A stretch of 64,000 nucleotides of DNA, taken from NCBI GenBank assembly GCA_035578905.1, contig JAQJVL010000278.1, positions 310,001 to 374,000 of the forward strand, read 5' to 3'. This DNA comes from Stictocephala bisonia. Taxonomy: Eukaryota; Arthropoda; Insecta; Hemiptera; Membracidae. The position numbers and the translations under genes are program-made. This document shows positions 15,698 to 48,505 of this stretch, one piece after another. Each line of letters starts with the position of its first letter. Position 1 is the first letter of the stretch. The notes beneath the pieces are model-generated. The model was not told the origin of the DNA. It saw only the letters and a program-made list of their open reading frames with translations, and made no database searches.

Positions 15698-15707
15698 ATA
15701 TGATATA

Positions 15708-15738
<31 letters not shown>

Positions 15739-16861: not shown

Positions 16862-18600
16862 TAATTAAAACCTTTTGTCTACGATTTTTTAAATAGTCTT
16901 GAAAAAACTTAGCAGAAATACCAGTTATGCCATAGTAGTTTAGTTTTAAGATTAACTCATCATGTTCAACACAATCAAATGCCTTGCTCAAGTCACAGAG
17001 AGTGGCTTGAGCAAAGGCCTTACTCTCAAAAGCTTTTATAATTTCCCTAACTAGTGCATCAACTGCATCAATTGTACATTTATTTCTTCTAAAACCAAAC
17101 TGTGATGAATTCAGGTAATTATTGTTTTCCAGATAGGTGACAAGTTGATCATGTACTATAATTTCTATAATTTTGGATATCACTGGTACAATGGATATAG
17201 GGCGATAACTTTCAGCAAGTTGTTTTGACCCTTTCTTAAAGATTGGGCATAGTCTAGACAATTTCAGTTCGTCTGGAAAAATACCCTCTTTCATACATTT
17301 ATTTATACATGTGGTTAAAGGATTCAAAATTATATGACTAATCTTCTTGAACATGTTATTTGATAAATTATAAATATCCTTGCTTTCAGAATTTTTTAGT
17401 CTTTTAACAGCGTTAGTGACATTATCAACAGAAACTTTCATAAAATAAAATTTATTTCTCTTGACTGGATGATTTTTGACTAGGCTTATACTATTGATAT
17501 TGTTGGGCTTCTTAATATTGTCTTTTATTTGTTTAATTGAATTAATAAAAAAATTATTAAACTGGTCTGGGCTAATATGTATGTCTGTTTGTAAAGATGA
17601 GTTATTTATATTTTCTTTTATTAAGTTCCATGCAGCCTTACATTTATTTTTACTATTTTCTATTTTTTCTGCATTGTGAGCCAGTTTAGCGTCTTTGATT
17701 GACTGTTTATAAAGTTGTTTTAGATTAGCATATTCAGCATGAAGCCTGTCATAACTACAATTCTTCACCAATTTGTCAAGAAATAAAAGTCTCTCTTTCA
17801 TTTGGGCCAGTTCCCTTGTATACCATTCAATGTTATTTTTAATATATTTACCTGTGGAACACTGTTTTTTTAATACAGAAAAAAATGTCAAGTTATTAAT
17901 TATAACTGAAAAAAATGCTTGAAAAAATTGTTGCGCACTTAAAGTTTTTTCATTCTTAAGTAAGGGATTCCAATCATGGGACAAAAGGCTGCTGATCAGA
18001 TTATCAATTGATGACTTAGGAAAACTGATTACAAATGGTGCAGATTGTTCTCTGGTTCTTTTCGAGTGTTTAGATATTTTTGAAAAGGTTTTAGTTTTAA
18101 TACTTACGATAAGACCATCATGATCTGAAAAAGGAAAGTTAAAGATGTTACATGAGATTACAAGATCTAGGCAATTTAAAAATATGTTATCAAGGCAATG
18201 GTTTTTTTTGGGTTGGTTTATCGTTGATACAAAAATAATTATGCTGCCTTAAAGTATTTAAAAACTCCCTTTTTGTTTTTTTGTGGGATGTTATGTCAAA
18301 GCTAGCATTTATGTCACCTCCCATTACAATTGAATAGCCACGAAATGAAGAGATGAAAGTAAACAATTTCTCCAGTGTTTCTAGAAAGATATTTGGGTCA
18401 CCTGCAGGTGAATGATAAATTGAAACTGCTATAACTTTAAGGCTATCAACAGCAGCCATACATGCTTCAAAATTAAGTTCTGAGCAAAAAGTTGAGATAT
18501 CAATTTTTTTAGAATTTAATTTTTTGTTAATAAGAATAGAGGTACCACCTCTTCTGTGATCTTTTCTACAGAAATCGGATACACAGTAGAAGACAGTAGA
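16842..18600 (-). pseudogene. LINE ORF2, endonuclease end and RT N-terminal half
   Basis: From 18600 downwards the frame encodes part of the endonuclease (GGTSILINKK, SIYHSPAGD, MGGDINASFD), then shifts frame at a poly-T run near 18205. It continues with FSDHDG and the RT fingers and palm (SYRPISIVPVISKIIE, QFGFRRNKCT, CDLSKAFDCVEHDEL) to a stop at 16842. Missing N-terminal endonuclease and two frameshifts make it a pseudogene. Confidence 0.85.
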
Positions 18601-18608: not shown

Positions 18609-19165
18609 CAGTGTTTTCTTACGTCAAATCATTGGACGATTAAAAATCACTCAATTTTTAAAAAAATAGACCTCGATTGACTCGCGAGAAATATACGATA
18701 ATACAATTTCTATACGATAATAAAAGTGAAAATATACGGGTGTACAATTTCAGTTCCGAAAAGGAGCTGAACGGTTCCTTACACGTACGTATACTACACC
18801 CAAGATGAACTTTCGCCTAGAAAAGATGGGAAGTTCGATTCTAGGGATGTAAAGTGACCTGTTCTCGGGACCCTTTTGATTGAACGGCCGTATTGATATG
18901 AACGAAAATATGCATAATTTCTACGGCGTACAGACAATTAGATTTGTATCGGTAACAGATCTTTTTAAGCATCTTGAACCGGATCTCTCGCCCCCTTTCT
19001 TGGGTCATAAAGACACTAACCAGCATTTCTGTTTTATTCACGCTATTTTAGGTTAGGTTACAAGTGACTGGTAGACTCGACAACCAACATGTGTGATCGC
19101 TACAATCCCAGCTCTGTTGTTCACTTTGAATTGAAGTAGTTCAAATCATAATGAACGAACTCGTT
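18609..19165. other. Non-coding DNA with degenerate transposon-like motifs
   Basis: No gene seen. Near 19120-19165 motifs such as GAACGAACTCGTTC and, just inside the array, GTCGACTAGTTC look like decayed hAT-type subterminal repeats. The tandem array starts within this sequence. Confidence 0.4.
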
Positions 19166-20051
19166 CACTACGTCGACTAGTTCATTTGACTGTCGTCGTG
19201 TACTACCTATTCTTAGGCGTATTGTTTAGTTCATAATTACACATACTAAACTGATAACGTATGGTTAAGGGTTTTTACAAGTGCACATACTCGAAGTTTC
19301 AAGTAGTCGCGCACCCCCAACAACAACAACAAAATCTTAATTAGACATTAAATATAAGTTATTCTGTAAAAACTGTTTGGAGCAAATTTAAATCTTTCTT
19401 GTGAATTAAACATTATAAGATAAATGAAATGATGAATAAGTATGCATGTCTGTATTTGGTTTATAAAAATAAAATAAATAATTGCAGATTTTAAAGAGAT
19501 TATTCACTTTAAGGTTTATACTATCAACCATAGATGACTATGCATTATTTTTCTTAGACTGCTTAAAAAGTAGACTAATATTCATATTGTCAATACTGTG
19601 AACAGCATAAGTTCTAGAACAAAGTCACATGCAGCAACATAAAATCAGCCAGGAATTTTGGAGAGTAGGATTTTGCAAGCAGAAACTGTCTAATGCTTTT
19701 ATAATGTTGGTTACTTTAGCAATCCCAGATAAATATTTTTTATGGAGGGATGATTAAAGTAATAACATGGAAAGTGTAGATGTTGGCCATCAACAGTTGA
19801 ATGAACCCCTAAGAGAAAAAACGAGGGAAGCCCACAATTATCCATTCAATAGAGACATGAGGGATTCTTTGCCAATATTGCTAAGATTCAACCTTTTTTG
19901 TAATTTTTGCACTTTGATATAAGCTTGATATTTATTGTTTCATATAACCAATCTACTAACACAATTTTGGAAAATGATCACACATATAGTGACATTATAA
20001 ACTATGAAATAAATGAAAGGGAATTTATAAATGAAAAGAACTAATACTCAC

Positions 20052-20236
20052 AACTTCCATACAGTTTGTTTTTTCTTGTCAATGTTAGGGTCATTTCTCG
20101 ATGCTCGTAACATTTCTGACCATCTCACAGCTTCCTGCAGTTCCATGAATCGTTCTTTGTACTGATTCCTCTCCATGAGTACTCGAGCCATTTCTACTCT
20201 GGTAAACCTCTTCCTTTGCGCCATAGGTACATCTTC
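20052..20236 (-). CDS. syd: JIP3/sunday driver exon B, copy 1 (RH2-like region)
   Basis: After acceptor TTGATTGTAG the exon reads [20 protein letters not shown] and continues [19 protein letters not shown], ending ...VWK plus TT before donor GTGAGT. This is the highly conserved segment after leucine zipper II in JIP3/JIP4 scaffolds, overlapping the RILP-homology 2 region that binds Rab GTPases. JIP3 links kinesin-1 and dynein/dynactin to cargo and JNK signalling. The exon is 185 nt, enters in phase 0 and leaves in phase 2. This copy keeps the conserved Val in MARVLMERN and Asp in RNDPNID. Confidence 0.93.
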
Positions 20237-22071
20237 CTACAATCAACACCTGTAAAGTTAATTTTCTAGATATACATAGTTTGATGTTTGTAAACACTTT
20301 ACACATTTGTAAACCTATTTGTTGCATTTGTTGTGCAATTTTCAACCCTATTGGTATCAGTCGTTGATACTATAGATAATTGTCAACCTCACTGACTGTC
20401 ATCGGTCAAAGTATAAACAATGTGCCAGGCTTTAAGAGAGCCTGGTAACATATAATGGCTGCTAAGAGACAAAATGTCACAAAAATAACATCGAAACTTT
20501 AAATGTTAGATGGAAAGAAAAAGTTCCATTTAACATTTAAATGTTTTTAGTTTGCTCTAAGTCTGTTTCTAACTGCAAAATAAAATTCTGTTGTTTCAAC
20601 ATATTTCAGGCACTCTAGCATCTATTACACTCATTGTAAAAAATAAGTGTTTGGCCGGCTTAGTTCATTGTTACCAATATTTATTTTTATTTAATTAACC
20701 CCCTAGGTGCTAAAATCCCTACAGCGGCTTTCAAACATGCGCTTTAATAATCAATTCCTATTCCTTATTCTGTATGCCAATCGGTTCATAACATTTTTTG
20801 TTTGAATCGGAAGGCTTCATGCTTTTGAAAGCAGTCCCTGACAATTAGCTTGGATAAGCATCAAAAGATCAATGTAAATTCATCTAAATACGGCAATAAA
20901 CATCGAAAGATCTAAATAAATTCATCAAAATATGGCAACTGTTTCAGCTGCAATTGACGTGTATGGTAGGTGCTGTTCAGTGTTGTTGTTTACTTTGCTA
21001 TTAAAATGGATGACAATTTACATTCCAGTGAATTATAAAGGTTTTGGGTGAAGATATAAGTGAAAAATAATGATAATGATGATTCGGCTGTTGATATAAC
21101 AAGTGCTATTAGACCTTAATTTGTGTTTTAAACAAATTTTTCCATGTAACCTTGCAACGACCACAAAAAGTAATGGAATTACTAATTGTATAAAATATAC
21201 TGTGTTATTATTAATGTAAAATTAATATTTTTGTATACATGTTTTAAGACTTGTAAATTCTTTTCTGTACATTTTCATTTTTTTTATAAGTAATTAATAA
21301 ACATTTACAATTATTAACGAAACATTGTATTTGTTAATAATCAGCTTTCCTCAAAACATAACACTGTTTTTAAATTAAAAACAACGAAGGCTAACAGGCC
21401 TTTCTTTAACAAACGCATATGAAACTAAACATTGAAATAATATACAAAATTTTAAAACCAAACTTAAAAATGATAAAACTAATTTTAAACTAGTTACCAT
21501 GCAAAGAGTAATTAAAACAGGTTTTTATTTATAATTTTAAATATGAACGTAGTAAACGTCTACTGTACACGTACATACGTTAATACTGTAAGTAATGTGA
21601 ACTGACCCACTAACTTTAGTTTTAGTGTTTTGTATTAATTGTTGAATTTTGCCTATTAGTTTCAAATTCTCTATTAGTTTTATATTATAAATCAATAAAA
21701 TGTTGAATTACAAGTGTTTTCTGTTCGCACTATTCAATGTAGCAATGCATTAGCTGAATAGATTTTTTTACTTTGACTTATAATCTGAAATAACAAAACA
21801 TTGGCTCACAAAAATTATTACAATAACTAAGTTGCAATCAATTTTGCTATGTAGTATTTGTCCTTCAGGGCCGTATTTGGGCTTGACACCATCTTAATTA
21901 AACCAAGTAAAATTAATATACACAATACGATGGTTGTGGACACTGTCTATTTGGTAAACATTAATATTTATTTATTCTTAATACGCCGATCATCAATAAA
22001 ACCACAGCTTACTCATTAAGTATAATAAAATATTGAGAGTAAGACTGGACCAAACATAACCTAACACTTAC

Positions 22072-22219
22072 TTCATCATCTGATTTGTTTGATTTTGCCA
22101 ACTTTTCTGCCTCTTCTTTGGTTTTCTTTAATTCTTCTTCCGGCTCAGACACTTTCTGCTTCAACCTATTTTTTAATGTTTGTAATGACTTCAATTCTTC
22201 TCTGAGAATCTCCTGTTCA
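22072..22219 (-). CDS. syd: JIP3/sunday driver exon A, copy 1 (leucine zipper II coiled coil)
   Basis: A 148-nt exon between acceptor TTTTTTACAG and donor GAA|GTAAGT. It reads (S)EQEILREELKSLQTLKNRLK and ends KSNKSDDE. It corresponds to the coiled-coil segment of JIP3 following KVDELT. It enters in phase 2 and leaves in phase 0. This copy carries Pro in SEPEEELKK where copy 4 has Leu, which should weaken the helix. Confidence 0.92.
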
Positions 22220-22317
22220 CTGTAAAAAAGTTTTTGAAATTTTTTATGTTATTACAAGCTAATCACTCTGCAGTTACATTTTTATTCTTTAACAAGCCAA
22301 GCTAAATTAAAATGCTC

Positions 22318-22620
22318 CAAATGTGGCGGCTCAGTGGTTAAGGCTGAAAACTCTGGAGTACAAAGGTCAAATCCCCACAAAGCTGCCAGCCAGTACTTTA
22401 CCTGTTGAATAAAGTTTATGGACATGACTGCAACCAATGTGAAGTCAGGTTTTCATCACAACAAATTTAAGCCTCTATAAAGAGCAAACATGAATTACCA
22501 CTTAAACTGACTATCCTACAGAGCACTCACCCTGCCAACCTACTTTCAAACATGACTAACAATAGTCACTCCCTTCCCAACTACAACTAATGGAAATGGA
22601 AGAAACAGAAAACAATAATC
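22318..22620 (+). repeat. tRNA-derived SINE, copy 1
   Basis: TGGCGGCTCAGTGGTTAAGG is a clear A box and AAGGTCAAATCCCC a B-box relative, followed by a body of about 230 bp. It is present at the same place in all four units, so it inserted before the duplications. No clear target duplication was read. Confidence 0.65.
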
Positions 22621-23836
22621 TGTTATAAATAAGCGATGAACCAAACAAATAAATTTATTTAATGCTCACAACACTCATTGGTGTTAAAACAATAAAAGAG
22701 AGGTGGGAGGAAGGACTGAACGCATTGCAAATATTGATATTTTTCAATCAATACAGTGCAAGTATGACAAATAAAATAACAAAACAAAATTTACCTTATC
22801 ATCTCCTATGTATCCACACAAATCAACATCTTTAAGAACCTTCCACCAACCTATATATGTATACTACTTTAAAACTCACACAAATATGAAACACGTTAAA
22901 TACCTTCTAATGCATTCACATACTTATAACATTTACATGACCCATAATCACTACGTCGACTAGTTCATTTGACTGTCGTCGTGTACTACCTATTCTTAGG
23001 CGTATTGTTTAGTTCATAATTACACATACTAAACTGATAACGTATGGTTAAGGGTTTTTACAAGTGCACATACTCGAAGTCTCAAGTAGTCGCGCACCCC
23101 CAACAACAACAACAAAATCTTAATTAGACATTAAATATAAGTTATTCTGTAAAAACTGTTTGGAGCAAATTTAAATCTTTCTTGTGAATTAAACATTATA
23201 AGATAAATGAAATGATGAATAAGTATGCATGTCTGTATTTGGTTTATAAAAATAAAATAAATAATTGCAGATTTTAGAGAGATTATTCACTTTAAGGTTT
23301 ATACTATCAACCATAGATGACTATGCATTATTTTTCTTAGACTGCTTAAAAAGTAGACTAATATTCATATTGTCAATACTGTGAACAGCATAAGTTCTAG
23401 AACAAAGTCACATGCAGCAACATAAAATCAGCCAGGAATTTTGGAGAGTAGGATTTTGCAAGCAGAAACTGTCTAATGCTTTTATAATGTTGGTTACTTT
23501 AGCAATCCCAGATAAATATTTTTTATGGAGGGATGATTAAAGTAATAACATGGAAAGTGTAGATGTTGGCCATCAACAGTTGAATGAACCCCTAAGAGAA
23601 AAAACGAGGGAAGCCCACAATTATCCATTCAATAGAGACATGAGGGATTCTTTGCCAATATTGCTAAGATTCAACCTTTTTTGTAATTTTTGCACTTTGA
23701 TATAAGCTTGATATTTATTGTGTTTCATATAACCAATCTACTAACACAATTTTGGAAAATGATCACACATATAGTGACATTATTAACTATGAAATAAATG
23801 AAAGGGAATTTATAAATGAAAAGAACTAATACTCAC

Positions 23837-24021
23837 AACTTCCATACAGTTTGTTTTTTCTTGTCAATGTTAGGGTAATTTCTCGATGCTCGTAACATTT
23901 CTGACCATCTCACAGCTTCCTGCAGTTCCATGAATCGTTCTTTGTACTGATTCCTCTCCATGAGTAATCGAGCCATTTCTACTCTGGTAAACCTCTTCCT
24001 TTGCGCCATAGGTACATCTTC
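23837..24021 (-). CDS. syd: JIP3/sunday driver exon B, copy 2
   Basis: The same 185-nt exon with intact acceptor (GATTATAG) and donor. Differences from copy 1: Leu in place of Val in MARLLMERN (shared with copy 4), and Tyr in RNYPNID where the other copies have Asp. The open frame and phases are kept. Confidence 0.9.
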
Positions 24022-25804
24022 CTATAATCAACACCCGTAAAGTTAGTTTTTTAGATATACATAGTTTGATGTTTGTAAACACTTTACACATTTGTAAACC
24101 TATTTGTTGCATCTATTGTGCAATTTTCAACCCTATTGGTATCAGTCGTTGATACTATAGATAATTGTCAACCTCACTGACTGTCATCGGTCAAAGTATA
24201 AACAATGTGCCAGGCTTTAAGAGAGCCTGGTAACATATAATGGCTGCTAAGAGACAAAATGTCACAAAAATAACATCGAAACTTTAAATGTTAGATGGAA
24301 AGAAAAAGTTCCATTTAACATTTAAATGTTTTTAGTTTGCTCTAAGTCTGTTTCTAACTGCAAAATAAAATTCTGTTGTTTCAACATATTTCAGGCACTC
24401 TAGCATCTACTACACTCATTGTAAAAAATAAGTGTTTGGCCGGCTTAGTTCATTGTTACCAATATTTATTTTTATTTAATTAACCCCCTAGGTGCTAAAA
24501 TCCCTACAGCGGCTTTCAAACATGCGCTTTAATAATCAATTCCTATTCCTTATTCTGTATGCCAATCGGTTCATAACATTTTTTGTTTGAATCGGAAGGC
24601 TTCATGCTTTTGAAAGCAGTCCCTGACAATTAGCTTGGATAAGCATCAAAAGATCAATGTAAATTCATCTAAATACGGCAATAAACATCGAAAGATCTAA
24701 ATAAATTCATCAAAATATGGCAACTGTTTCAGCTGCAATTGACGTGTATGGTAGGTGCTGTTCAGTGTTGTTGTTTACTTTGCTATTAAAATGGATGACA
24801 ATTTACATTCCAGTGAATTATAAAGGTTTTGGGTGAAGATATAAGTGAAAAATAATGATAATGATGATTCGGCTGTTGATATAACAAGTGCTATTAGACC
24901 TTAATTTGTATTTTAAACAAATTTTTCCATGTAACCTTGCAACGACCACAAAAAGTAATGGAATTACTAATTGTATAAAATATACCGTGTTATTATTAAT
25001 GTAAAATTAATATTTTTGTATACATGTTTTAAGACTTGTAAATTCTTTTCTGTACATTTTCATTTTTTTTATAAGTAATTAATAAACATTTACAATTATT
25101 AACGAAACATTGTATTTGTTAATAATCAGCTTTCCTCAAAACATAACACTGTTTTTAAATTAAAAACAACGAAGGCTAACAGGCCTTTCTTTAACAAACG
25201 CATATGAAACTAAACATTGAAATAATATACAAAATTTTAAAACCAAACTTAAAAATGATAAAACTAATTTTAAACTAGTTACCATGCAAAGAGTAATTAA
25301 AACAGGTTTTTATTTATAATTTTAAAGATGAACGTAGTAAACGTCTACTGTACACGTACATACGTTAATACTGTAAGTAATGTGAACTGACCCACTAACT
25401 TTAGTTTTAGTGTTTTGTATTAATTGTTGAATTTTGCCTATTAGTTTCAAATTCTCTATTAGTTTTATATTATAAATCAATAAAATGTTGAATTACAAGT
25501 GTTTTCTGTTCGCACTATTCAATGTAGCAATGCATTAGCTGAATAGATTTTTTTACTTTGACTTATAATCTGAAATAACAAAACATTGGCTCACAAAAAT
25601 TATTACAATAACTAAGTTGCAATCAATTTTGCTATGTAGTATTTGTCCTTCAGGGCCGTATTTGGGCTTGACACCATCTTAATTAAACCAAGTAAAATTA
25701 ATATACACAATACGATGGTTGTGGACACTGTCTATTTGGTAAACATTAATATTTATTTATTCTTAATACGCCGATCATCAATAAAACCACAGCTTACTCA
25801 TTAA

Positions 25805-28061
25805 CACGTTCGCTGCGGAGCGGTCGAATTCGACTGGTCAGTGATCTGGCGCCGGTGGCGGACCAGTCGAATTCAAGGGGTGGAACCATATATTTTTGTT
25901 GACTTCAGTATGCAGTTAGCTTTCAGTGCCGGCACACGTGTCTTTGTTTCCGCTATCGGTAGTGACTAAATAACATATTTTCGTGTTGGTTTTCCAATTG
26001 CAATGCTTTTATGTGTTGTACATTGTTTTGTGTTTATGTGTATATATAATTAGAAATTGTATATAATAGTGTTGTTTTTATTGTGATTTATTTGTAAATT
26101 CAAGATGTCAGACAGCTCTAGCAACAGTGATGAAGTTGAATATGACAGTGATTTGGTAGGTAGTACAGAATCAGAAAGTGATGATGATAATATTGTTGTT
26201 ACACCGCCTACATGGTCGACATTCACTGGGGGGATGAAGAGATTTAGTTTTACCAAGGAAAACAAACTGTTAGTGCCTGTTCCAGGTGAGAAACCCATTG
26301 ATTGGTTTAGAATGATGCTAGATGATGTTGTTTTAGAATTTATTTGCTCAAAAACAAATAAATATGCCTTAGAACTCTATTGTTCAAACAATACCGTTGA
26401 GAAGTCTAGGATCACCAAATGGAAGGACCTAACTGTACCTGAGTTTTTAACATTTTTAGGCCTACTATTACATACAGGATCAATCCAGCTAAACAGAATC
26501 CAGGACTATTGGTCGACACACCGGTTGTTTAGTTTTCCGTCGTTCAGAAACTACATGGCGAGAGATAGATTTTTAGGAATATTGAGATGCTTATATTTTT
26601 CACAACCTACACAATCTACTACAAATCCCCAACCATCAAAATCAACACAACAACCTCGTTCCTCCACTGAAAAAATTGATGAAATGGTCTCTTATTTTAA
26701 CAATAAAATGTCACAAATTTATTATCCCAACCGAGAACTGTCTATTGACGAGTCAATGGTCCTGTGGCGAGGGCGTTTACGCTTTCGCCAGTACATAAAA
26801 GGTAAACGTCATAAGTTTGGAGTAAAGCTATATTCTCTAAATGAACCAGATGGTTTGACGTACAAATTCAAAATTTATTCCGGTAGTAGTGACGTAACAG
26901 CTGGATTAGGACACACAGAAAAGGTAGTGATGTTGCTCATGAATAGATTGCTGAGAAACGGCCATTCAGTATTCATGGACAATTACTACAACAGTTTCTC
27001 TCTTGCATCCAAGCTGTTATCCATGAATACATACTGTACAGGAACACTTAGGAAAAACCGTAAATGCAATCCAAAAGAAATAGAAAATGCAAAACTGAAA
27101 AAAGGTGAGACTGTTGGTAAATATGCTGAGGGTGTTCTCGTAGGGAAATGGCGAGATAAAAGAGATGTGTTGTACATTTCAACAGAATTTGAGAATGATA
27201 TGGTCACTATGCACAACAAATTTGGACAGCAATTGGAAAAACCACTACCCATCGTGCAATATAATGCAAACATGAAGGGAACGGACCGACAAGACCAAAT
27301 GATGTCTTATTATCCTTTAGAACGGAAGACTCTAAGGTGGTATAAAAAGATATTTGTGCATATCATTCACATGTGTCTAACAAACTCTTATATGCTGTAC
27401 AACATGCACAGAGTGGACAGTGGGCAAAAAAAAGTGTCCCTCTTCAAATTTCGTTTGGAAGTTATTGAAGAGTTGCTCCCACCAAAGCTTCCTACAATCA
27501 GTCCACGGCAAAAGCGACCTGTTTCCCATGAATTGGTAAAAAATGACGAAGTATGTAAAAAAGGGTTTACAAAAAGAAAAAACTGTAGAGTATGCTATAA
27601 AGAAGGCAATAAAAATAAACAGAGTATCTACATATGTTCTGGTTGCCCAGGAAAGCCAGCACTGTGTGCGGTACGATGTTTCGAGAAGTTCCACAAATGA
27701 GAGAAGCAAAGTAGAAAATGTACATAGTGTAAATATTTTTTTTGTATATAAATAACTCTTTATTGAAACTTTTAATGTGCTTAGTAAAACATTACACACC
27801 TGTATAAGGACCATAGCCATGTTTTGGGTGTGTTTACCGATATTGACATGGACAAGGGCTGGCGCCAGTCACGGAGCAGACGAATTCGACCGATGGAAAT
27901 TAGCATCAAGTAATTCGACATCTATGCCTTCCATCCACCTCAAAACATCATATTTGGACTTCTTTACGATAAAGGTAAGGTAGCTGAACTAGAATTTTTA
28001 AATTATTCTAGTTCAGCTACTGGGGCAATAACAAGGTCCAAACCGCACCACAGCGAACGTG
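25805..28061 (+). mobile_element. Complete piggyBac DNA transposon
   Basis: A 2257-bp element flanked by TTAA on both sides (25801-25804, 28062-28065); the unoccupied site is present in copies 1 and 3 as ACTCATTAAGTATAA. The 19-bp terminal repeats CACGTTCGCTGCGGAGCGG and CACGTTCGCTGTGGTGCGG (right end, complemented) differ at two positions. Subterminal GTCGAATTCGAC-type repeats and a hairpin (27980-28020, GTAGCTGAACTAGAAT and complement) lie near the ends. It entered after the exon array had duplicated. Confidence 0.96.
26105..27700 (+). CDS. piggyBac transposase (DDE_Tnp_1_7)
   Basis: A 531-residue frame from an ATG to TGA, apparently intact. An acidic N-terminus (SDSSSNSDE...) precedes the catalytic domain. 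Asp215 lies in LSIDESMVLWRG, Asp292 in VFMDNYYNS, and Asp394/Asp397 in MKGTDRQDQMM, matching the DDD triad of piggyBac transposases. A C-terminal cysteine-rich domain (CRVCYKEG, CSGCPGKPALC) matches the zinc-binding domain that binds the ends. The length is normal. Whether it is active cannot be judged from sequence alone. Confidence 0.95.
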   Translation: MSDSSSNSDEVEYDSDLVGSTESESDDDNIVVTPPTWSTFTGGMKRFSFTKENKLLVPVPGEKPIDWFRMMLDDVVLEFICSKTNKYALELYCSNNTVEKSRITKWKDLTVPEFLTFLGLLLHTGSIQLNRIQDYWSTHRLFSFPSFRNYMARDRFLGILRCLYFSQPTQSTTNPQPSKSTQQPRSSTEKIDEMVSYFNNKMSQIYYPNRELSIDESMVLWRGRLRFRQYIKGKRHKFGVKLYSLNEPDGLTYKFKIYSGSSDVTAGLGHTEKVVMLLMNRLLRNGHSVFMDNYYNSFSLASKLLSMNTYCTGTLRKNRKCNPKEIENAKLKKGETVGKYAEGVLVGKWRDKRDVLYISTEFENDMVTMHNKFGQQLEKPLPIVQYNANMKGTDRQDQMMSYYPLERKTLRWYKKIFVHIIHMCLTNSYMLYNMHRVDSGQKKVSLFKFRLEVIEELLPPKLPTISPRQKRPVSHELVKNDEVCKKGFTKRKNCRVCYKEGNKNKQSIYICSGCPGKPALCAVRCFEKFHK

Positions 28062-28117
28062 TTAAGTATAATAAAATATTGAGAGTAAGACTGGACCAAA
28101 CATAACCTAACACTTAC

Positions 28118-28265
28118 TTCATCATCTGATTTGTTTGATTTTGCCAACTTTTCTGCCTCTTCTTTGGTTTTCTTTAATTCTTCTTCCGGCTCAGACACTT
28201 TCTGCTTCAACCTATTTTTTAATGTTTGTAATGACTTCAATTCTTCTCTGAGAATCTCCTGTTCA
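28118..28265 (-). CDS. syd: JIP3/sunday driver exon A, copy 2
   Basis: Same 148-nt exon and splice sites as copy 1, including the Pro variant (SEPEEEL). The piggyBac element lies 56 bp beyond its donor, in the A-B intron. Confidence 0.92.
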
Positions 28266-28365
28266 CTGTAAAAAAGTTTTTGAAATTTTTTATGTTATTA
28301 CAAGCTAATCACTCTGCAGTTACATTTTTATTCTTTAACAAGCCAAGCTAAATTAAAATGCTCCA

Positions 28366-28740
28366 AATGTGGCGGCTCAGTGGTTAAGGCTGAAAACTCT
28401 GGAGTACAAAGGTCAAATCCCCACAAAGCTGCCAGCCAGTACTTTACCTGTTGAATAAAGTTTATGGACATGACTGCAACCAATGTGAAGTCAGGTTTTC
28501 ATCACAACAAATTTAAGCCTCTATAAAGAGCAAACATGAATTACCACTTAAACTGACTATCCTACAGAGCACTCACCCTGCCAACCTACTTTCAAACATG
28601 ACTAACAATAGTCACTCCCTTCCCAACTACAACTAATGGAAATGGAAGAAACAGTTTGGAACACTTAGTTCCAATAGTTAGTTGTTCTAGAACTATCTAG
28701 AACACTAGTTTATAGATAGTTATTTATAAAAATAATCTGT
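28366..28740 (+). repeat. tRNA-derived SINE, copy 2, with palindromic insert
   Basis: Same SINE as in copy 1. Near 28655-28730 the tail is interrupted by a palindrome-rich insertion (TTAGTTGTTCTAGAACTA, CTAGAACACTAG) absent from the other units. Confidence 0.6.
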
Positions 28741-29954
28741 TATAAATAAGCGATGAACCAAACAAATAAATTTATTTAATGCTCACAACACTCATTGGTG
28801 TTAAAACAATAAAAGAGAGGTGGGAGGAAGGACTGAATGCATTGCAAATATTGATATTTTTCAATCAATACAGTGCAAGTATGACAAATAAAATAACAAA
28901 ACAAAATTTACCTTATCATCTCCTATGTATCCACACAAATCAACATCTTTAAGAACCTTCCACCAACCTATATATGTATACTACTATAAAACTCACACAA
29001 ATATGAAACACGTTAAATACCTTCTAATGCATTCACATACTTATAACATTTACAATGACCCATAATCACTACGTCGACTAGTTCATTTGACTGTCATCGT
29101 GTACTACCTATTCTTAGGCGTATTGTTTAGTTCATAATTACACATACTAAACTGATAACGTATGGTTAAGGGTTTTTACAAGTGCACATACTCGAAGTCT
29201 CAAGTAGTCGCGCACCCCCAACAACATCAACAAAATCTTAATTAGACATTAAATATAAGTTATTCTGTAAAAACTGTTTGGAGCAAATTTAAATCTTTCT
29301 TGTGAATTAAACATTATAAGATAAATGAAATGATGAATAAGTATGCATGTCTGTATTTGGTTTATAAAAATAAAATAAATAATTGCAGATTTTAGAGAGA
29401 TTATTCACTTTAAGGTTTATACTATCAACCATAGATGACTATGCATTATTTTTCTTAGACTGCTTAAAAAGTAGACTAATATTCATATTGTCAATACTGT
29501 GAACAGCATAAGTTCTAGAACAAAGTCACATGCAGCAACATAAAATCAGCCAGGAATTTTGGAGAGTAGGATTTTGCAAGCAGAAACTGTCTAATGCTTT
29601 TATAATGTTGGTTACTTTAGCAATCCCAGATAAATATTTTTTATGGAGGGATGATTAAAGTAATAACATGGAAAGTGTAGATGTTGGCCATCAACAGTTG
29701 AATGAACCCCTAAGAGAAAAAACGAGGGAAGCCCACAATTATCCATTCAATAGAGACATGAGGGATTCTTTGCCAATATTGCTAAGATTCAACCTTTTTT
29801 GTAATTTTTGCACTTTGATATAAGCTTGATATTTATTGTGTTTCATATAACCAATCCACTAACACAATTTTGGAAAATGATCACACATATAGTGACATTA
29901 TAAACTATGAAATAAATGAAAGGGAATTTATAAATGAAAAGAACTAATACTCAC

Positions 29955-30139
29955 AACTTCCATACAGTTTGTTTTTTCTTGTCAATGTTAGGGTCATTTC
30001 TCGATGCTCGTAACATTTCTGACCATCTCACAGCTTCCTGCAGTTCCATGAATCGTTCTTTGTACTGATTCCTCTCCATGAGTACTCGAGCCATTTCTAC
30101 TCTGGTAAACCTCTTCCTTTGCGCCATAGGTACATCTTC
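29955..30139 (-). CDS. syd: JIP3/sunday driver exon B, copy 3
   Basis: Intact 185-nt exon with acceptor GATTGTAG and donor GTGAGT. The peptide is the same as in copy 1 ([16 protein letters not shown]). Confidence 0.92.
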
Positions 30140-31974
30140 CTACAATCAACACCCGTAAAGTTAATTTTCTAGATATACATAGTTTGATGTTTGTAAACAC
30201 TTTACACATTTGTAAACCTATTTGTTGCATCTATTGTGCAATTTTCAACCCTATTGGTATCAGTCGTTGATACTATAGATAATTGTCAACCTCACTGACT
30301 GTCATCGGTCAAAGTATAAACAATGTGCCAGGCTTTAAGAGAGCCTGGTAACATATAATGGCTGCTAAGAGACAAAATGTCACAAAAATAACATCGAAAC
30401 TTTAAATGTTAGATGGAAAGAAAAAGTTCCATTTAACATTTAAATGTTTTTAGTTTGCTCTAAGTCTGTTTCTAACTGCAAAATAAAATTCTGTTGTTTC
30501 AACATATTTCAGGCACTCTAGCATCTACTACACTCATTGTAAAAAATAAGTGTTTGGCCGGCTTAGTTCATTGTTACCAATATTTATTTTTATTTAATTA
30601 ACCCCCTAGGTGCTAAAATCCCTACAGCGGCTTTCAAACATGCGCTTTAATAATCAATTCCTATTCCTTATTCTGTATGCCAATCGGTTCATAACATTTT
30701 TTGTTTAAATCGGAAGGCTTCATGCTTTTGAAAGCAGTCCCTGACAATTAGCTTGGATAAGCATCAAAAGATCAATGTAAATTCATCTAAATAAGGCAAT
30801 AAACATCGAAAGATCTAAATAAATTCATCAAAATATGGCAACTGTTTCAGCTGCAATTGACGTGTATGGTAGGTGCTGTTCAGTGTTGTTGTTTACTTTG
30901 CTATTAAAATGGATGACAATTTACATTCCAGTGAATTATAAAGGTTTTGGGTGAAGATATAAGTGAAAAATAATGATAATGATGATTCGGCTGTTGATAT
31001 AACAAGTGCTATTAGACCTTAATTTGTATTTTAAACAAATTTTTCCATGTAACCTTGCAACGACCACAAAAAGTAATGGAATTACTAATTGTATAAAATA
31101 TACTGTGTTATTATTAATGTAAAATTAATATTTTTGTATACATGTTTTAAGACTTGTAAATTCTTTTCTGTACATTTTCATTTTTTTTATAAGTAATTAA
31201 TAAACATTTACAATTATTAACGAAACATTGTATTTGTTAATAATCAGCTTTCCTCAAAACATAACACTGTTTTTAAATTAAAAACAACGAAGGCTAACAG
31301 GCCTTTCTTTAACAAACGCATATGAAACTAAACATTGAAATAATATACAAAATTTTAAAACCAAACTTAAAAATGATAAAACTAATTTTAAACTAGTTAC
31401 CATGCAAAGAGTAATTAAAACAGGTTTTTATTTATAATTTTAAAGATGAACGTAGTAAACGTCTACTGTACACGTACATACGTTAATACTGTAAGTAATG
31501 TGAACTGACCCACTAACTTTAGTTTTAGTGTTTTGTATTAATTGTTGAATTTTGCCTATTAGTTTCAAATTCTCTATTAGTTTTATATTATAAATCAATA
31601 AAATGTTGAATTACAAGTGTTTTCTGTTCGCACTATTCAATGTAGCAATGCATTAGCTGAATAGATTTTTTTACTTTGACTTATAATCTGAAATAACAAA
31701 ACATTGGCTCACAAAAATTATTACAATAACTAAGTTGCAATCAATTTTGCTATGTAGTATTTGTCCTTCAGGGCCGTATTTGGGCTTGACACCATCTTAA
31801 TTAAACCAAGTAAAATTAATATACACAATACGATGGTTGTGGACACTGTCTATTTGGTAAACATTAATATTTATTTATTCTTAATACGCCGATCATCAAT
31901 AAAACCACAGCTTACTCATTAAGTATAATAAAATATTGAGAGTAAGACTGGACCAAACATAACCTAACACTTAC

Positions 31975-32122
31975 TTCATCATCTGATTTGTTTGATTTTG
32001 CCAACTTTTCTGCCTCTTCTTTGGTTTTCTTTAATTCTTCTTCCGGCTCAGACACTTTCTGCTTCAACCTATTTTTTAATGTTTGTAATGACTTCAATTC
32101 TTCTCTGAGAATCTCCTGTTCA
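31975..32122 (-). CDS. syd: JIP3/sunday driver exon A, copy 3
   Basis: Intact 148-nt exon identical in peptide to copies 1 and 2, with the Pro variant in SEPEEEL. Confidence 0.92.
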
Positions 32123-32221
32123 CTGTAAAAAAGTTTTTGAAATTTTTTATGTTATTACAAGCTAATCACTCTGCAGTTACATTTTTATTCTTTAACAAGC
32201 CAAGCTAAATTAAAATGCTCC

Positions 32222-32525
32222 AAATGTGGCGGCTCAGTGGTTAAGGCTGAAAACTCTGGAGTACAAAGGTCAAATCCCCACAAAGCTGCCAGCCAGTACT
32301 TTACCTGTTGAATAAAGTTTATGGACATGACTGCAACCAATGTGAAGTCAGGTTTTCATCACAACAAATTTAAGCCTCTATAAAGAGCAAACATGAATTA
32401 CCACTTAAACTGACTATCCTACAGAGCACTCACCCTGCCAACCTACTTTCAAACATGACTAACAATAGTCACTCCCTTCCCAACTACAACTAATGGAAAT
32501 GGAAGAAACAGAAAACAATAATCTG
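32222..32525 (+). repeat. tRNA-derived SINE, copy 3
   Basis: Same element at the same unit position as copies 1, 2 and 4; A box TGGCGGCTCAGTGGTTAAGG visible. Confidence 0.6.
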
Positions 32526-33740
32526 TTATAAATAAGCGATGAACCAAACAAATAAATTTATTTAATGCTCACAACACTCATTGGTGTTAAAACAATAAAA
32601 GAGAGGTGGGAGGAAGGACTGAATGCATTGCAAATATTGATATTTTTCAATCAATACAGTGCAAGTATGACAAATAAAATAACAAAACAAAATTTACCTT
32701 ATCATCTCCTATGTATCCACACAAATCAACATCTTTAAGAACCTTCCACCAACCTATATATGTATACTACTTTAAAACTCACACAAATATGAAACACGTT
32801 AAATACCTTCTAATGCATTCACATACTTATAACATTTACAATGACCCATAATCACTACGTCGACTAGTTCATTTGACTGTCATCGTGTACTACCTATTCT
32901 TAGGCGTATTGTTTAGTTCATAATTACACATACTAAACTGATAACGTATGGTTAAGGGTTTTTACAAGTGCACATACTCGAAGTCTCAAGTAGTCGCGCA
33001 CCCCCAACAACATCAACAAAATCTTAATTAGACATTAAATATAAGTTATTCTGTAAAAACTGTTTGGAGCAAATTTAAATCTTTCTTGTGAATTAAACAT
33101 TATAAGATAAATGAAATGATGAATAAGTATGCATGTCTGTATTTGGTTTATAAAAATAAAATAAATAATTGCAGATTTTAAAGAGATTATTCACTTTAAG
33201 GTTTATACTATCAACCATAGATGACTATGCATTATTTTTCTTAGACTGCTTAAAAAGTAGACTAATATTCATATTGTCAATACTGTGAACAGCATAAGTT
33301 CTAGAAGAAAGTCACATGCAGCAACATAAAATCAGCCAGGAATTTTGGAGAGTAGGATTTTGCAAGCAGAAACTGTCTAATGCTTTTATGATGCTGGTTA
33401 CTTTAGCAATCCCAGATAAATATTTTTTATGGAGGGATGATTAAAGTAATAACATGGAAAGTGTAGATGTTGGCCATCAACAGTTGAATGAACCCCTAAG
33501 AGAAAAAACGAGGGAAGCCCACAATTATCCATTCAATAGAGACATGAGGGATTATTTGCCAATATTGCTAAGATTCAACCTTTTTTGTAATTTTTGCACT
33601 TTGATATAAGCTTGATATTTATTGTGTTTCATATAACCAATCCACTAACACAATTTTGGAAAATGATCACACATATAGTGACATTATAAACTATGAAATA
33701 AATGAAAGGGAATTTATAAATGAAAAGAACTAATACTCAC

Positions 33741-33925
33741 AACTTCCATACAGTTTGTTTTTTCTTGTCAATGTTAGGGTCATTTCTCGATGCTCGTAAC
33801 ATTTCTGACCATCTCACAGCTTCCTGCAGTTCCATGAATCGTTCTTTGTACTGATTCCTCTCCATGAGTAATCGAGCCATTTCTACTCTGGTAAACCTCT
33901 TCCTTTGCGCCATAGGTACATCTTC
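33741..33925 (-). CDS. syd: JIP3/sunday driver exon B, copy 4
   Basis: Intact 185-nt exon with splice sites. It has the Leu variant in MARLLMERN shared with copy 2, and Asp in RNDPNID. Confidence 0.92.
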
Positions 33926-35537
33926 CTATAATCAACACCCGTAAAGTTAGTTTTTTAGATATACATAGTTTGATGTTTGTAAACACTTTACACATTTGTA
34001 AACCTATTTGTTGCATCTATTGTGCAATTTTCAACCCTATTGGTATCAGTCGTTGATACTATAGATAATTGTCAACCTCACTGACTGTCATCGGTCAAAG
34101 TATAAACAATGTGCCAGGCTTTAAGAGAGCCTGGTAACATATAATGGCTGCTAAGAGACAAAATGTCACAAAAATAACATCGAAACTTTAAATGTTAGAT
34201 GGAAAGAAAAGTTCCATTTAACATTTAAATGTTTTTAGTTTGCTTTAAGTCTGTTTCTAACTGCAAAATAAATTCTGTTGTTTCAACATATTTCAGGCAC
34301 TCTAGCATCTATTACACTCATTGTAAAAAATAAGTGTTTGGCCGGCTTAGTTCATTGTTACCAATATTTATTTTTATTTAATTAACCCCCTAGGTGCTAA
34401 AATCCCTACAGCGGCTTTCAAACATGCGCTTTAATAATCAATTCCTATTCCTTATTCTGTATGCCAATCGGTTCATAACATTTTTTGTTTAAATCGGAAG
34501 GCTTCATGCTTTTGAAAGCAGTCCCTGACAATTAGCTTGGATAAGCATCAAAAGATCAATGTAAATTCATCTAAATAAGGCAATAAACATCGAAAGATCT
34601 AAATAAATTCATCAAAATATGGCAACTGTTTCAGCTGCAATTGACGTGTATGGTAGGTGCTGTTCAGTGTTGTTGTTTACTTTGCTATTAAAATGGATGA
34701 CAATTTACATTCCAGTGAATTATAAAGGTTTTGGGTGAAGATATAAGTGAAAAATAATGATAATGATGATTCGGCTGTTGATATAACAAGTGCTATTAGA
34801 CCTTAATTTGTATTTTAAACAAATTTTTCCATGTAACCTTGCAACGACCACAAAAAGTAATGGAATTACTAATTGTATAAAATATACTGTGTTATTATTA
34901 ATGTAAAATTAATATTTTTGTATACATGTTTTAAGACTTGTAAATTCTTTTCTGTACATTTTCATTTTTTTTATAAGTAATTAATAAACATTTACAATTA
35001 TTAACGAAACATTGTATTTGTTAATAATCAGCTTTCCTCAAAACATAACACTGTTTTTAAATTAAAAACAACGAAGGCTAACAGGCCTTTCTTTAACAAA
35101 CGCATATGAAACTAAACATTGAAATAATATACAAAATTTTAAAACCAAACTTAAAAATGATAAAACTAATTTTAAACTAGTTACCATGCAAAGAGTAATT
35201 AAAACAGGTTTTTATTTATAATTTTAAAGATGAACGTAGTAAACGTCTACTGTACACGTACATACGTTAATACTGTAAGTAATGTGAACTGACCCACTAA
35301 CTTTAGTTTTAGTGTTTTGTATTAATTGTTGAATTTTGCCTATTAGTTTCAAATTCTCTATTAGTTTTATATTATAAATCAATAAAATGTTGAATTACAA
35401 GTGTTTTCTGTTCGCACTATTCAATGTAGCAATGCATTAGCTGAATAGATTTTTTTACTTTGACTTATAATCTGAAATAACAAAACATTGGCTCACAAAA
35501 ATTATTACAATAACTAAGTTGCAATCAGTTTTGCTAT

Positions 35538-38500
35538 TAGCCCAGTCAATGAAGGGTTTTATTCGCAACTAATTAGGGGAAAGCTGGATTTTTCCCTGAT
35601 GATAGACCATGATAAGAGGTACATTTTCCCAAAAGTCCCCCCTTCTCCCCCTTGTGCTTCCCCCCCTACCCCCTTGAACTTGTTATTTACAAGCTTTCGC
35701 TATAACGCGCATATCTCAGTTGTTGTTAGTCCGAAAATGGTTTTCTTTTTTTTGTTGTGTTTGTCTATAAACGGACTACAAATGTTATTCAGTAGACTTT
35801 TATTGTAAAACTAATGTTAAAGGCACCACAAAGCGATTAACTAAAAAAATATATGAATTAGGGTGACGAGTTTGCAGTTTTTTCTGTATATCTTTTTATA
35901 ACATAACTATAATAAAACATTGCTCATAAAATATTGTAGCAAATATAATTATCTTTAAATTGATACCCTTGGTGTGTTAGTATCGGGTAGTGTGAGGCCC
36001 TAAGGATCATTGCAAAGGGAGCGCGCACGTCTGGTTTCGCCGCGCTGGAGGTGTTATCTTGAGTTGCAGCATGCAGCGTCCTAACTAGCTAGCGTGTTAT
36101 CGCACATAGACCTACTATTAACTATGGTTCTACATATAATAGTGTGTTATTTTAAAAGCATGTAACAATAGCAATCACTGTATTTAATATTGTTTTAGTT
36201 ATGAAAGTGTTAGTAATGGTATGTGTAAAAGAAATAAAGTTTTAAAAACTGTAGTAACTGCCAAATATAGATTTAAACATTAGAATACACTCAGGCTTAC
36301 TAAGAAAATACAGTTGCCTTATATATAAATGTATTATTTATAGGACGCAATTTTCAATTTTGCCAGTTTTGGTTCGTTGGGGAAGACTTCCCCTACCCTA
36401 AAATTAGGGGTTTCCATTATCCACCACCTATGGACCCGCCGTGTTCCGGACTGGCAATAACCGGCAGATGTTGTTTGTTAGCTAGACATTGTGAATGTCT
36501 TCAAAGAAATGACATCATCACGGACCACCCACCCACCTCAATGAATTTCCTTTGCTTTAATTTTTTAAAATATGTTTTAACTGAACACAACAAAATATTT
36601 TAATAAAATGCTACAAAACATATGTACAACATTTTTGTTTGAGAGGAAAAGTTCTTTCTTCGTTACACATTTTGTGTGGGATTCAAAATCTATGGTGCAA
36701 GAAGAGTTCTTCGATGATCTCCGGGATTGCTCTTGCTCTTTGGTTGTTGGTTCATCAGGATAACCATAAAAAACAACCGTGCAGTTCCTTCTATAATGGG
36801 ATAAAACAAAGCTGCAGTAGTTTTGAACTATGTCTCCATACGTCGCTTCATTTGGCCAGGTTACATAGTGCAGCAAAAAGCCACCATCAACAACCGTGTT
36901 GGAATGGAAGTTCTTCAATAATGCCTTCACTAAAGACTTTGGTGAATGACGATTTAGTTCCTTTGCGCAATGATGAATCGTCAAACATTGATGGTGGAGT
37001 GCAAGCTAATTTGTACTCCAAGTACTTTTTCAGTTTGTTTGGGGAGTCACACACACATAATATTCGGTTGAAAAGTTGTTGGGGGTTAACAGTAACTGCC
37101 TTGGATCGCACCATAACAGTCTTGTGAGTAGCTTGCGTAACAACCATATCTTTTCGGTGTAGTTTCATCTCTCCAAAACTTATTCCGCTCATCTTTTTCA
37201 TTGCTGCTACACCAACTCCATAAGCGTTATCACAGTTTACACCTTTGTTTGAAACAAAACCAGATTCTACTTCTAGAGTAAGCATGACCACTTAATATGT
37301 GATTAACTGTATTATTACCATATACAGTTTCCCACAGTTTCTCCAATCCACTACCTTCCATTATACGCCCTACAGATCCCATGAACGACATTATAAGATG
37401 AAATCCTCCAAGGCGAACTATGGCTTTCGATAAATCGTTGTCAGGATCAGCATTTTGTACAATTTCCGAAGATTTCAAAAAAAGTGGCTGATCAAATGTG
37501 ATGACGCATGATAGGCTTCTTTCCCTTCATTCTTCTACTGCAAAACATAAGGCTGAATAAATTGTAGACATGTTGCTGGGGTCCATATTGATAAATGGAA
37601 GTGCTAAAATATATGTTGAATCGCATTCACTTTTGCTTTTACTTAAAACGTGCATGAACCCATTCCAGCCAGGGTTGTTTTTTAGCCCAACTGTCCACAT
37701 AATGTTAAGTGGGAATAAACATAGCTTTAAATGAGCTGGAGATGGAACCTTTAGTTTCAAGTCATCGTAGCCAACAGCTTTCATTTTCAGTGTTGCGTTT
37801 AGCTTTCTGGGATATGCTAAAGTACGGATTTCAGTGAGTTTTGAGTTTATGGATCCAGGCTGAATCTTGTCCACTTTGATTTTAGTGTCTACGCTTTTTC
37901 CCGGCGTTATGCACTGAATACCACCCATGGCATGAAATGTATCTAGTCCATCCAAAGTACGCACATTGACGTCTGCATTATCAAACACACGTTGTATAAA
38001 GCAATCATTCCCAACATCAGGCGACCCAGCATTGATCAGTGAGCTGAGATACATATTACTTTCATAGTAAGACGCGCACACACCCATAGATGTTAATAAA
38101 TCTATCAAATGCTTGGATCCGTACAGCCGGTGTAGAGTTAATGATAGTCCTATTTGAAGGGGTGATAGAAAGGACCTTGGGCGTACGGCTGAAATAATTG
38201 CGTGATTGACAACGTTACATACTCTTTTCACCTTTGACGATTCTGTGATTTTTCTATTTTTTATAACTCTCTATGTAAATAGTTTTAATGACGATGGTAC
38301 TAGATTTTCCCCACCCGATGTGATGGCTTCGACATCTGGATAGACATTCGACTCATAGGCCATTTTTTGTATATCCTCTCTCACAATATCAGCTGCTGCT
38401 AACACGATTCTCCGATCCGTGCGATACCCTAACGTAGTGGGTGCCACGCGTAGCACACGAACATGCGCGCTTCCTTTACAGGACTTCTCTGGGCCTCATA

Positions 38501-38968
38501 TTACCCAATACCACCACACCAAGGGTATCATTTTAAAGGTAATTATATTTGCTACAATATTTCATGAGCAATGTTTTATTATAATTATGTTATAAAAAGA
38601 TATACAGAAAAACTGCAAACTCGTCACCCTAATTCATATATTTTTTTAGTTAATCGCTTTGTGGTGCCTTTAACATTAGTTTTACAATAAAAGTCTACTG
38701 AATAACATTTGTAGTTCGTCTATAGACAAACACAACAAAAAAAAAAAATAAAACCATTTTCGGACTAACAACAACTGAGATATGCGCGTTATAGCGAAAG
38801 CTTGCAAATAACAAGTTCAAGGGGGGGTAGGGGGGGAAGCACAAGGGGGAGAAGTGGGGACTTTTGGGGAAATGTACCTCTTATCATGGTCTATCATCAG
38901 GTAAAAATCCAGCTTTCCCCTAATTAGTTGCGCATACAGGCTTTTTTTAGTCTTTATTGACTGGGCTA
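35538..38968 (-). mobile_element. Long-TIR DNA transposon, possibly Academ-like
   Basis: A 3431-bp insertion in copy 4, bounded by TAGCCCAGTCAAT and its complement with a 3-bp target duplication TAT (35535-35537, 38969-38971); empty sites in the other units read GCTATGTAG. Terminal inverted repeats run about 460-480 bp (35538-36000 and 38492-38968) and end near GAGGCCC. The interior codes on the minus strand. Long TIRs, a 3-bp duplication and a GG...YGYP-type nuclease-like segment suggest an Academ-type element, but I am not sure of the superfamily. Confidence 0.85.
36577..38456 (-). pseudogene. Putative transposase-like protein of the long-TIR element, disrupted
   Basis: Pieces in order on the minus strand: 38456-38274 (YPDVEAITSGGENLVPSSLK), an in-frame TAG at 38271-38273, 38231-37527 (FDNADVNVRTLDGLDTFHAM, acidic residues in DNAD), another stop, then 37478-37230 in the same frame (GGFHLIMSFMGSVGRIMEGS, TVNHILSGHAYSR). 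A frameshift near 37260 leads to 37291-36887, and another to 36984-36577 (VDGGFLLHYVTWP, VVFYGYPDEPTTKEQ, FLSNKNVVHMF). The last segment resembles PIN/XPG-like regions seen in uncharacterised invertebrate transposon proteins. At least two stops and two frameshifts make it inactive. Confidence 0.6.
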
Positions 38969-39192
38969 TATGTAGTATTTGTCCTTCAGGGCCGTATTTG
39001 GGCTTGACACCATCTTAATTAAACCAAGTAAAATTAATATACACAATACGATGGTTGTGGACACTGTCTATTTGGTAAACATTAATATTTATTTATTCTT
39101 AATACGCCGATCATCAATAAAACCACAGCTTACTCATTAAGTATAATAAAATATTGAGAGTAAGACTGGACCAAGTAGAACCTAACACTTAC

Positions 39193-39340
39193 TTCATCAT
39201 CTGATTTGTTTGATTTTGCCAACTTTTCTGCCTCTTCTTTGGTTTTCTTTAATTCTTCTTCCAGCTCAGACACTTTCTGCTTCAACCTATTTTTTAATGT
39301 TTGTGATGACTTCAATTCTTCTCTGAGAATCTCCTGTTCA
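39193..39340 (-). CDS. syd: JIP3/sunday driver exon A, copy 4 (ancestral-like)
   Basis: Same 148-nt exon and splice sites, but with Leu in SELEEELKKTK where copies 1-3 have Pro, and Ser in KSSQTLKNR where they have Leu. Leu at the heptad position is what JIP3 family members have, so this copy best preserves the coiled coil. It is the first exon A met by a transcript coming from 40555-40611. Confidence 0.93.
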
Positions 39341-39440
39341 CTGTAAAAAAGTTTTTGAAATTTTTTATGTTATTACAAGCTAATCACTCTGCAGTTACAT
39401 TTTTATTCTTTAACAAGCCAAGCTAAATTAAAATGCTCCA

Positions 39441-39745
39441 AATGTGGCGGCTCAGTGGTTAAGGCTGAAAACTCTGGAGTACAAAGGTCAAATCCCCACA
39501 AAGCTGCCAGCCAGTACTTTACCTGTTGAATAAAGTTTATGGACATGACTGCAACCAATGTGAAGTCAGGTTTTCATCACAACAAATTTAAGCCTCTATA
39601 AAGAGCAAACATGAATTACCACTTAAACTGACTATCCTACAGAGCACTCACCCTGCCAACCTACTTTCAAACATGACTAACAATAGTCACTCCCTTCCCA
39701 ACTACAACTAATGGAAATGGAAGAAACAGAAAACAATAATCTGTT
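39441..39745 (+). repeat. tRNA-derived SINE, copy 4
   Basis: Same SINE at the same position in the unit as copies 1-3. Confidence 0.6.
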
Positions 39746-40070
39746 ATAAATAAGCGATGAACCAAACAAATAAATTTATTTAATGCTCACAACACTCATT
39801 GGTGTTAAAACAATAAAAGAGAGGTGGGAGGAAGGACTGAACGCATTGCAAATATTGATATTTTTCAATCAATACAGTGCAAGTATGACAAATAAAATAA
39901 CAAAACAAAATTTACCTTATCATCTCCTATGTATCCACACAAATCAACATCTTTAAGAACCTTCCACCAACCTATATATGTATACTACTTTAAAACTCAC
40001 ACAAATATGAAACACGTTAAATACCTTCTAATGCATTCACATACTTATAACATTTACAATGACCCATAAT

Positions 40071-40554: not shown

Positions 40555-40611
40555 CTCGTAAGCTCGTCCACTTTGATTATCAAATCGTCTTTAACTATGT
40601 TTAAGGCATTC
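40555..40611 (-). CDS. syd: JIP3/sunday driver exon, leucine zipper II
   Basis: A 57-nt exon with acceptor ATTTACAG and donor GAG|GTATG. It reads (K)NALNIVKDDLIIKVDELT and ends with AG, which joins the first T of exon A to make Ser before EQEIL. This is the strongly conserved zipper of JIP3/JIP4 that contacts kinesin light chain, dynactin and ARF6. Single copy. Confidence 0.93.
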
Positions 40612-40729
40612 CTGTAAATAAAAATACAGTATTAAAAACTAGCTGCTAAATAATTATATGCATATTTCACTTAAGTTTAACTAAAGATAACAACATTTAT
40701 AGGAAGTTTATAACTGACAGTTTTTAAGT

Positions 40730-42087: not shown

Positions 42088-42089
42088 AT

Positions 42090-42107
42090 TGGTAGCGGAG
42101 CGTGGTT
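42090..42107 (+). other. Primer-binding site
   Basis: TGGTAGCGGAGCGTGGTT starts two bases after the LTR. TGG is the complement of a tRNA CCA end; the tRNA species could not be identified by eye. Confidence 0.65.
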
Positions 42108-48501: not shown

Positions 48502-48505
48502 AAGT

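Follow-up and report, generated by a model that had tools for sequence, protein, structure and literature searches.

Partial duplication of a gene as a genomic segment, with secondary tandem amplification of part of the copy, is a known kind of event. Clusters of tandemly duplicated exons, mutually exclusive or additive in use, consist of head-to-tail copies that keep their splice sites and reading frame, as described in PMC9013439 and PMC9741552. In the JIP3/JIP4 family (MAPK8IP3, SPAG9, sunday driver, UNC-16), leucine zipper II is described as binding dynactin p150 and kinesin light chain (PMC6831827), and RH2 proteins, JIP3 and JIP4 included, as recognising Rabs phosphorylated by LRRK2 (preprint PMC12393467); given these binding roles, a multi-module protein of this family would be notable and, if real, would have several motor- and Rab-binding sites in a row. 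Here, we describe a tandem array of two JIP3-type exons, termed A and B, in the hemipteran Stictocephala bisonia. It lies in a stretch of 64,000 nucleotides, referred to as the window, that corresponds to positions 310001-374000 of contig JAQJVL010000278.1 (C278) in assembly GCA_035578905.1 (1.68 Gb in 11,105 contigs; other contigs are named likewise). We consider it likely, with a probability of about 0.7, that the array is a young partial copy of the JIP3/sunday driver gene that was amplified in tandem and is now without visible constraint.

The locus resembles JIP3/JIP4 in its leucine zipper II exons and its RH2 core (83-86% identity), and differs in that no RH1 or WD40 exons were detected and in having the A-B pair four times, whereas 239 of the 240 JIP3-type proteins listed have a single RH2 core. 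The 240 comprise the top 120 of 1,472 hits in one search and the top 120 of 4,401 in a second, made with a two-module query (7,985 candidates scored); a motif count gave no second RH2 core in any of them and none at all in the remaining protein, P0106. The remark in the initial annotation that no JIP3 protein with such repeats is known, therefore, stands for these 240. One locust protein (P0121) that covers 98% of the two-module query was rejected as a two-module protein, since it has one RH2. With the tandem exon clusters of the two articles cited above, as these are described there, the array shares the head-to-tail copies with preserved splice sites and frame; its units, however, are 99.3-99.6% identical, they form a two-exon, symmetric cassette of which more than one could be included, there is no sign of selection for variants, and the further exons that a working gene would need were not found. 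From a partial gene duplication, the locus does not differ in principle: it looks like a DNA-level copy with introns, one edge of which lies in a dispersed repeat, and it has relaxed constraint and private transposon insertions. It is a tidy case of this kind, since the same assembly contains both a relative with the segment once and another version of the array.

The four-unit array and its exons

By self-comparison of the window, a 3.78-kb unit with one exon A and one exon B was found in four head-to-tail copies on the minus strand, at 19165-40069, confirming the fourfold tandem duplication initially proposed. Unit 4 (32852-40069), the first in transcription order, is split by a 3.4-kb element (approximately 35541-38968), while unit 3 (29066-32851) is uninterrupted. 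Unit 2 (22948-29065) is split by a piggyBac-type transposon (approximately 25804-28064) and has about 73 nt of further extra sequence at 28655-28727; unit 1 (19165-22947) is the last to be transcribed. After removal of the unit-specific insertions, the units are 3,783-3,786 bp long and differ pairwise by 0.37-0.69%, with 35 variable sites among them, and two of the four carry private insertions.

Exon A (148 nt) occurs at 39193-39340 (A4), 31975-32122 (A3), 28118-28265 (A2) and 22072-22219 (A1), and exon B (185 nt) at 33741-33925 (B4), 29955-30139 (B3), 23837-24021 (B2) and 20052-20236 (B1), all on the minus strand; the order of transcription is thus A4 B4 A3 B3 A2 B2 A1 B1. Each of the eight copies is preceded by AG, followed by GT and open in the right frame, exactly as had been annotated. 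Exon A is entered in phase two, the intron between A and B is in phase zero and B is left in phase two, which means that an in-frame junction is possible between B and the following A (TT+T, specifying Phe). This in-frame joining, also claimed at the outset, holds when two upstream exons and the eight copies are joined in order: the product runs through 483 codons without a stop. Among 2,000 shuffles of the A4 and B1 exons, none left both open.

All four exonic changes within the array are replacements. A4 has a Leu-to-Ser change (at KSSQT) and retains the Leu that is replaced by Pro in A1, A2 and A3 (KVSEPEEEL in A1). The B exons, which carry the RH2 core, are open over the core in all four copies; B1 and B3 specify the same protein sequence as the single B exon of contig C3067 (see below), B4 has a Val-to-Leu change and B2 has the same change as well as Asp-to-Tyr, the Val-to-Leu change being located within the core.

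The assignment of both exons to the JIP3 family was borne out by comparison with the PDB, where A and B together matched a single sequence, that of JIP3 (8pr2_B; E 5.4e-23). Their ten best protein relatives are arthropod JIP3/JIP4 or unnamed sequences, the above identity extending over 150 residues; crayfish isoforms (85%) and a spittlebug JIP3 (86%) score highest, and sequences from other insects and a shrimp come next. Two leucine zipper II exons are located upstream of the array on the same strand, at 51053-51110 and 40555-40611, the second of which ends in AG| and joins A in frame (Ser), and the leucine zipper II feature is made up of these two together with A. The start motif MGKE[VI] is present in 119 of the 120 relatives listed. 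Taken alone, A and B scored 26.2 bits against PF16471, below the cut-off of 30, covering the last 31 of 71 profile positions.

Other JIP3 exons in the genome and the single-copy relative

A search of the assembly with the spittlebug JIP3 yielded 31 matches (38 of 252 candidates scored). Among the matches listed, strong ones to residues 1-346 occur on C3067 only, followed there by one A and one B; the 3′ exons are matched in two versions, one on C4903 and the other on C5189, and nowhere else; C278 gives A four times and B four times, and C6158 gives one A and one B. No match to residues after 998 is among the 31. Three weak matches, on C416, C528 and C79, involve the N-terminal coiled coil (29-31% identity; E 2.5e-4 to 8.2e-4) and were assigned to other genes. 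Between C4903 and C5189, the 3′ exons differ by 2%, and the two versions are most likely uncollapsed alleles. With C3067, they probably constitute parts of one working gene.

Around the array, tblastn of C278:210001-474000, which contains one 500-N gap, with JIP3 queries, the spittlebug protein among them, found no further JIP3 exon on the strand of the gene, where the other matches were at chance level (E above 5); none was thus found within 112 kb upstream or 120 kb downstream of the array, and RH1 and leucine zipper I exons were not found in this region. By comparison, the next upstream exon on C3067 is about 15 kb away, and the exons on C5189 are separated by 1.5-4.3 kb. Searches with PF19056 (WD40_2) and with the spittlebug JIP3 detected no WD40 exon on C278; the five PF19056 matches fall on three contigs (C102, C87 and C5189), the last being JIP3-like, and the JIP3 WD40 exons lie on C5189/C4903. 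Two C4903 stretches that were compared with C278 have only short repeats in common with it. C5189 as a direct continuation of C278 was set aside, as the stretches that they share look like repeats only. The array had initially been taken for an exon pair of a working JIP3 gene: frame and family identity stand, and the working gene does not hold up well, as its other exons are matched on C3067, C4903 and C5189 and, leucine zipper II apart, none of them was found on C278.

C3067 is the fuller relative, with the exons for residues 1-346, both leucine zipper exons, one A and one B. Window positions 14713-51758 (minus strand) are colinear with C3067:61305-70849, the latter being the end of that contig. 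Upstream, the homology stops at about position 51758 of the window, inside a dispersed repeat (51252-51783) that takes 37 of the 40 matches listed in that comparison and that was probably involved in the copying; apart from A-rich runs, nothing in the C278 sequence examined corresponds to C3067:52001-61305. An earlier idea, that the array ends exactly where homology to C3067 ends, was rejected: the homology continues, masked on the window side by a long interspersed nuclear element (LINE) and on the C3067 side by a short deletion.

The second version of the array is on C6158, a contig of 30.7 kb rich in insertions and deletions (84 gap openings per kb relative to the window in one 3-kb stretch), which is apparently unpolished long-read sequence left in the assembly; frameshifts in its exons are not trustworthy. 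The unit junction GACCCATAA|TCACTACG occurs on it twice, once exactly and once with small insertions or deletions, and the array end once, from which it follows that C6158 has no fewer than two complete units and the beginning of another. Its two A copies both belong to the A4 type (Ser, Leu), while one B copy is intact and the other is full of insertions and deletions. The sequence of a long terminal repeat (LTR) is found at the same place as in the window, and the 3.4-kb insertion of unit 4 is absent. Its upstream flank matches the window beyond 51758. The first 1,500 bases of C6158 are 77.4% identical to window 61942-60513, the place expected beyond the gap, and 79.6% identical to C278:278511-277093, so that colinearity of the contig start with the window beyond the gap is suggestive only.

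Divergence, constraint and origin of the array

Divergence was counted as substitutions outside insertions and deletions. Between C278 and C6158, it is 0.97% in a clean 1.76-kb stretch and 1.3-1.8% in the noisier C6158 copies; between C4903 and C5189, it is 1.96% over 2.3 kb. C278 and C3067 are 3.6-4.2% apart (3.6% in the same clean 1.76-kb stretch). A FastTree phylogeny of the units, C6158 and C3067 was left unused, C6158 being too noisy. In local alignment, the array differs from C3067 at 253 of 6,206 intron sites (4.08%) and at 4 of 448 exon sites (Fisher p 1.8e-4); an intron divergence of 8.1% from global alignment was set aside as inflated by misaligned insertions and deletions. One of the four exon differences is the Leu-to-Pro change private to A1-A3, and the other three, common to every array copy, are synonymous. 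Variable sites within the array number 4 of 333 in the exons and 31 of 3,446 in the introns (p 0.54), which gives no sign of purifying or diversifying selection on the array copies, in what is a weak test with few sites. The exon-to-intron ratios, 4:253 relative to C3067 and 4:31 within the array, differ from each other (p 0.009).

The residues replaced within the array are well conserved. The segment could be cut out of 119 of 120 proteins, which gave 66 distinct arthropod relatives; in the corresponding columns of these, Leu occurs in 61 at the Leu-to-Ser site and in 64 at the Leu-to-Pro site, Val in all 66 and Asp in 62. Mutually exclusive splicing of variant modules was set aside, as the copies are too similar to one another and the four replacements affect conserved positions. 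Taken together, the comparisons are suggestive of constraint on the exons until about the time of the amplification and of none visible after it. If so, the copy must be recent and derived from a haplotype that was already about 4% from C3067.

The course of events that we favour would have started with a recent copying, at the DNA level, from such a haplotype; the copied part would extend from leucine zipper II through the RH2 exon, introns included, and lack the N-terminal, middle and WD40 exons. Inside this copy, the 3.78-kb unit with A and B would have been amplified to four, most simply by unequal exchange or replication slippage, and mobile elements would then have entered individual units. 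The array copies may now change freely, with the cell relying on the C3067 gene (single A-B) plus C4903/C5189. C278 would accordingly be a separate place and not an allele, and probably no functional protein is made from it; a four-module protein from the array locus appears unlikely. An in-frame array of exons with intact splice sites in raw sequence thus need not amount to a new protein, the view across the whole genome pointing to a partial copy. The case seems to catch the amplification of a gene fragment at an early stage, with constraint before and not after it and with array content that differs between two contigs.

Several observations weigh against this course of events. All splice sites and frames in the array are still intact, and the four exon changes are few. 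Since the exon differences from C3067 shared by the array copies are only synonymous, constraint seems to have lasted until about the amplification, unlike what would be expected of an old ectopic fragment: on a neutral array branch, some seven amino acid changes would be expected and none was seen (P about 0.001 by a rough Poisson estimate). The genome search with the spittlebug JIP3 did not list the leucine zipper exons that tblastn finds on C278 and C3067, and other short exons could, therefore, be missed too. Finally, the downstream homology reaches the very end of C3067, 3.7 kb past its B exon, and that contig stops before any downstream break is encountered.

Some of these facts would also suit a structural allele, in which C278 and C6158 represent a diverged haplotype of the working JIP3 gene whose A-B cassette was amplified in place, with one to four modules spliced in or one of them picked. 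Colinearity of C278 with C3067 through both leucine zipper exons, A and B to the end of C3067, the phase-two symmetry of a cassette that reads through, and constraint up to about the amplification are all consistent with it, as is the fact that exons for residues 1-346 matched once in the assembly, the second haplotype of that part being missing or collapsed. However, an allele would require over 112 kb between the array and the N-terminal exons upstream of it, and over 120 kb to the next exon downstream, far beyond the spacing on C3067 and C5189, and the genome search listed no other JIP3 exon for C278. The upstream flank of C278 is unrelated to C3067, the 3.6-4.2% divergence exceeds the 1-2% between presumed alleles, and, with C3067, the two array contigs would bring the haplotypes to three, a number that only a pooled sample could have. 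We, therefore, regard such an allele as unlikely, and it is a good deal less probable still that a segregating allele of this kind would, by splicing, add one to four leucine-zipper/RH2 modules in numbers that vary between individuals. Were an allele the explanation, it would amount to a natural experiment on the number of RH2/leucine-zipper modules that a motor adaptor can tolerate.

Constraint before the amplification would equally fit a second JIP3 paralogue, complete in the genome but with its other exons absent from the assembly, and the two versions of the 3′ exons, 2% apart, could provide it with a 3′ half, perhaps C5189. We consider this very unlikely: among the matches listed for the 1.68-Gb assembly, residues 1-346 have a single strong set, C4903 and C5189 are better explained as alleles, and 264 kb of C278 around the array, with a single gap, are without further JIP3 exons. 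There is a similarly slim chance that mis-assembly of noisy reads expanded a repeat with a true copy number of one or two. Seemingly uncollapsed and unpolished contigs do occur in the assembly, C6158 being the example, and a second tandem array, of 3.75-kb units, is situated 40 kb away; yet the units differ at 35 sites, two of them have private insertions, the unit junction recurs on C6158, and four head-to-tail units are unlike a simple doubling of haplotypes.

Mobile elements and neighbouring repeats

Four insertions in the colinear stretch are absent from C3067. An LTR retrotransposon (40728-48502, plus strand) separates the two leucine zipper exons, its LTRs (40728-42088 and 47141-48502) being 99.3% identical. 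The element in unit 2, flanked by TTAA, includes an uninterrupted open reading frame for a piggyBac-type transposase of 537 amino acids (26087-27700, plus strand) with DDE_Tnp_1_7 and zf-Tnp_2 domains. The element in unit 4 (35541-38968), absent from C6158 as well, has inverted ends of about 470 bp that are 93% alike; two of its reading frames were tested and gave no Pfam match. Beside the array, a LINE insertion (15705-18600, minus strand; edges approximate) has ATATGATA at both edges.

Further LINE-like sequence is found at window positions 9517-14357, where one reading frame has a Ulp1 protease domain and another has a reverse transcriptase domain and an endonuclease domain, the latter below the Pfam cut-off. 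The second tandem array mentioned above is outside the window, at C278:390656-426930; its 3,750-bp unit is present in seven near-full and three partial copies, 98-99.9% identical, and derives from a degenerate LINE (reverse-transcriptase-like frames were recognised by eye). It does not match the JIP3 unit, though the unit lengths are almost equal. Within the window, a 133-bp tandem repeat in about nine copies occupies positions 52983-54188, approximately 1.2 kb upstream of the limit of homology to C3067.

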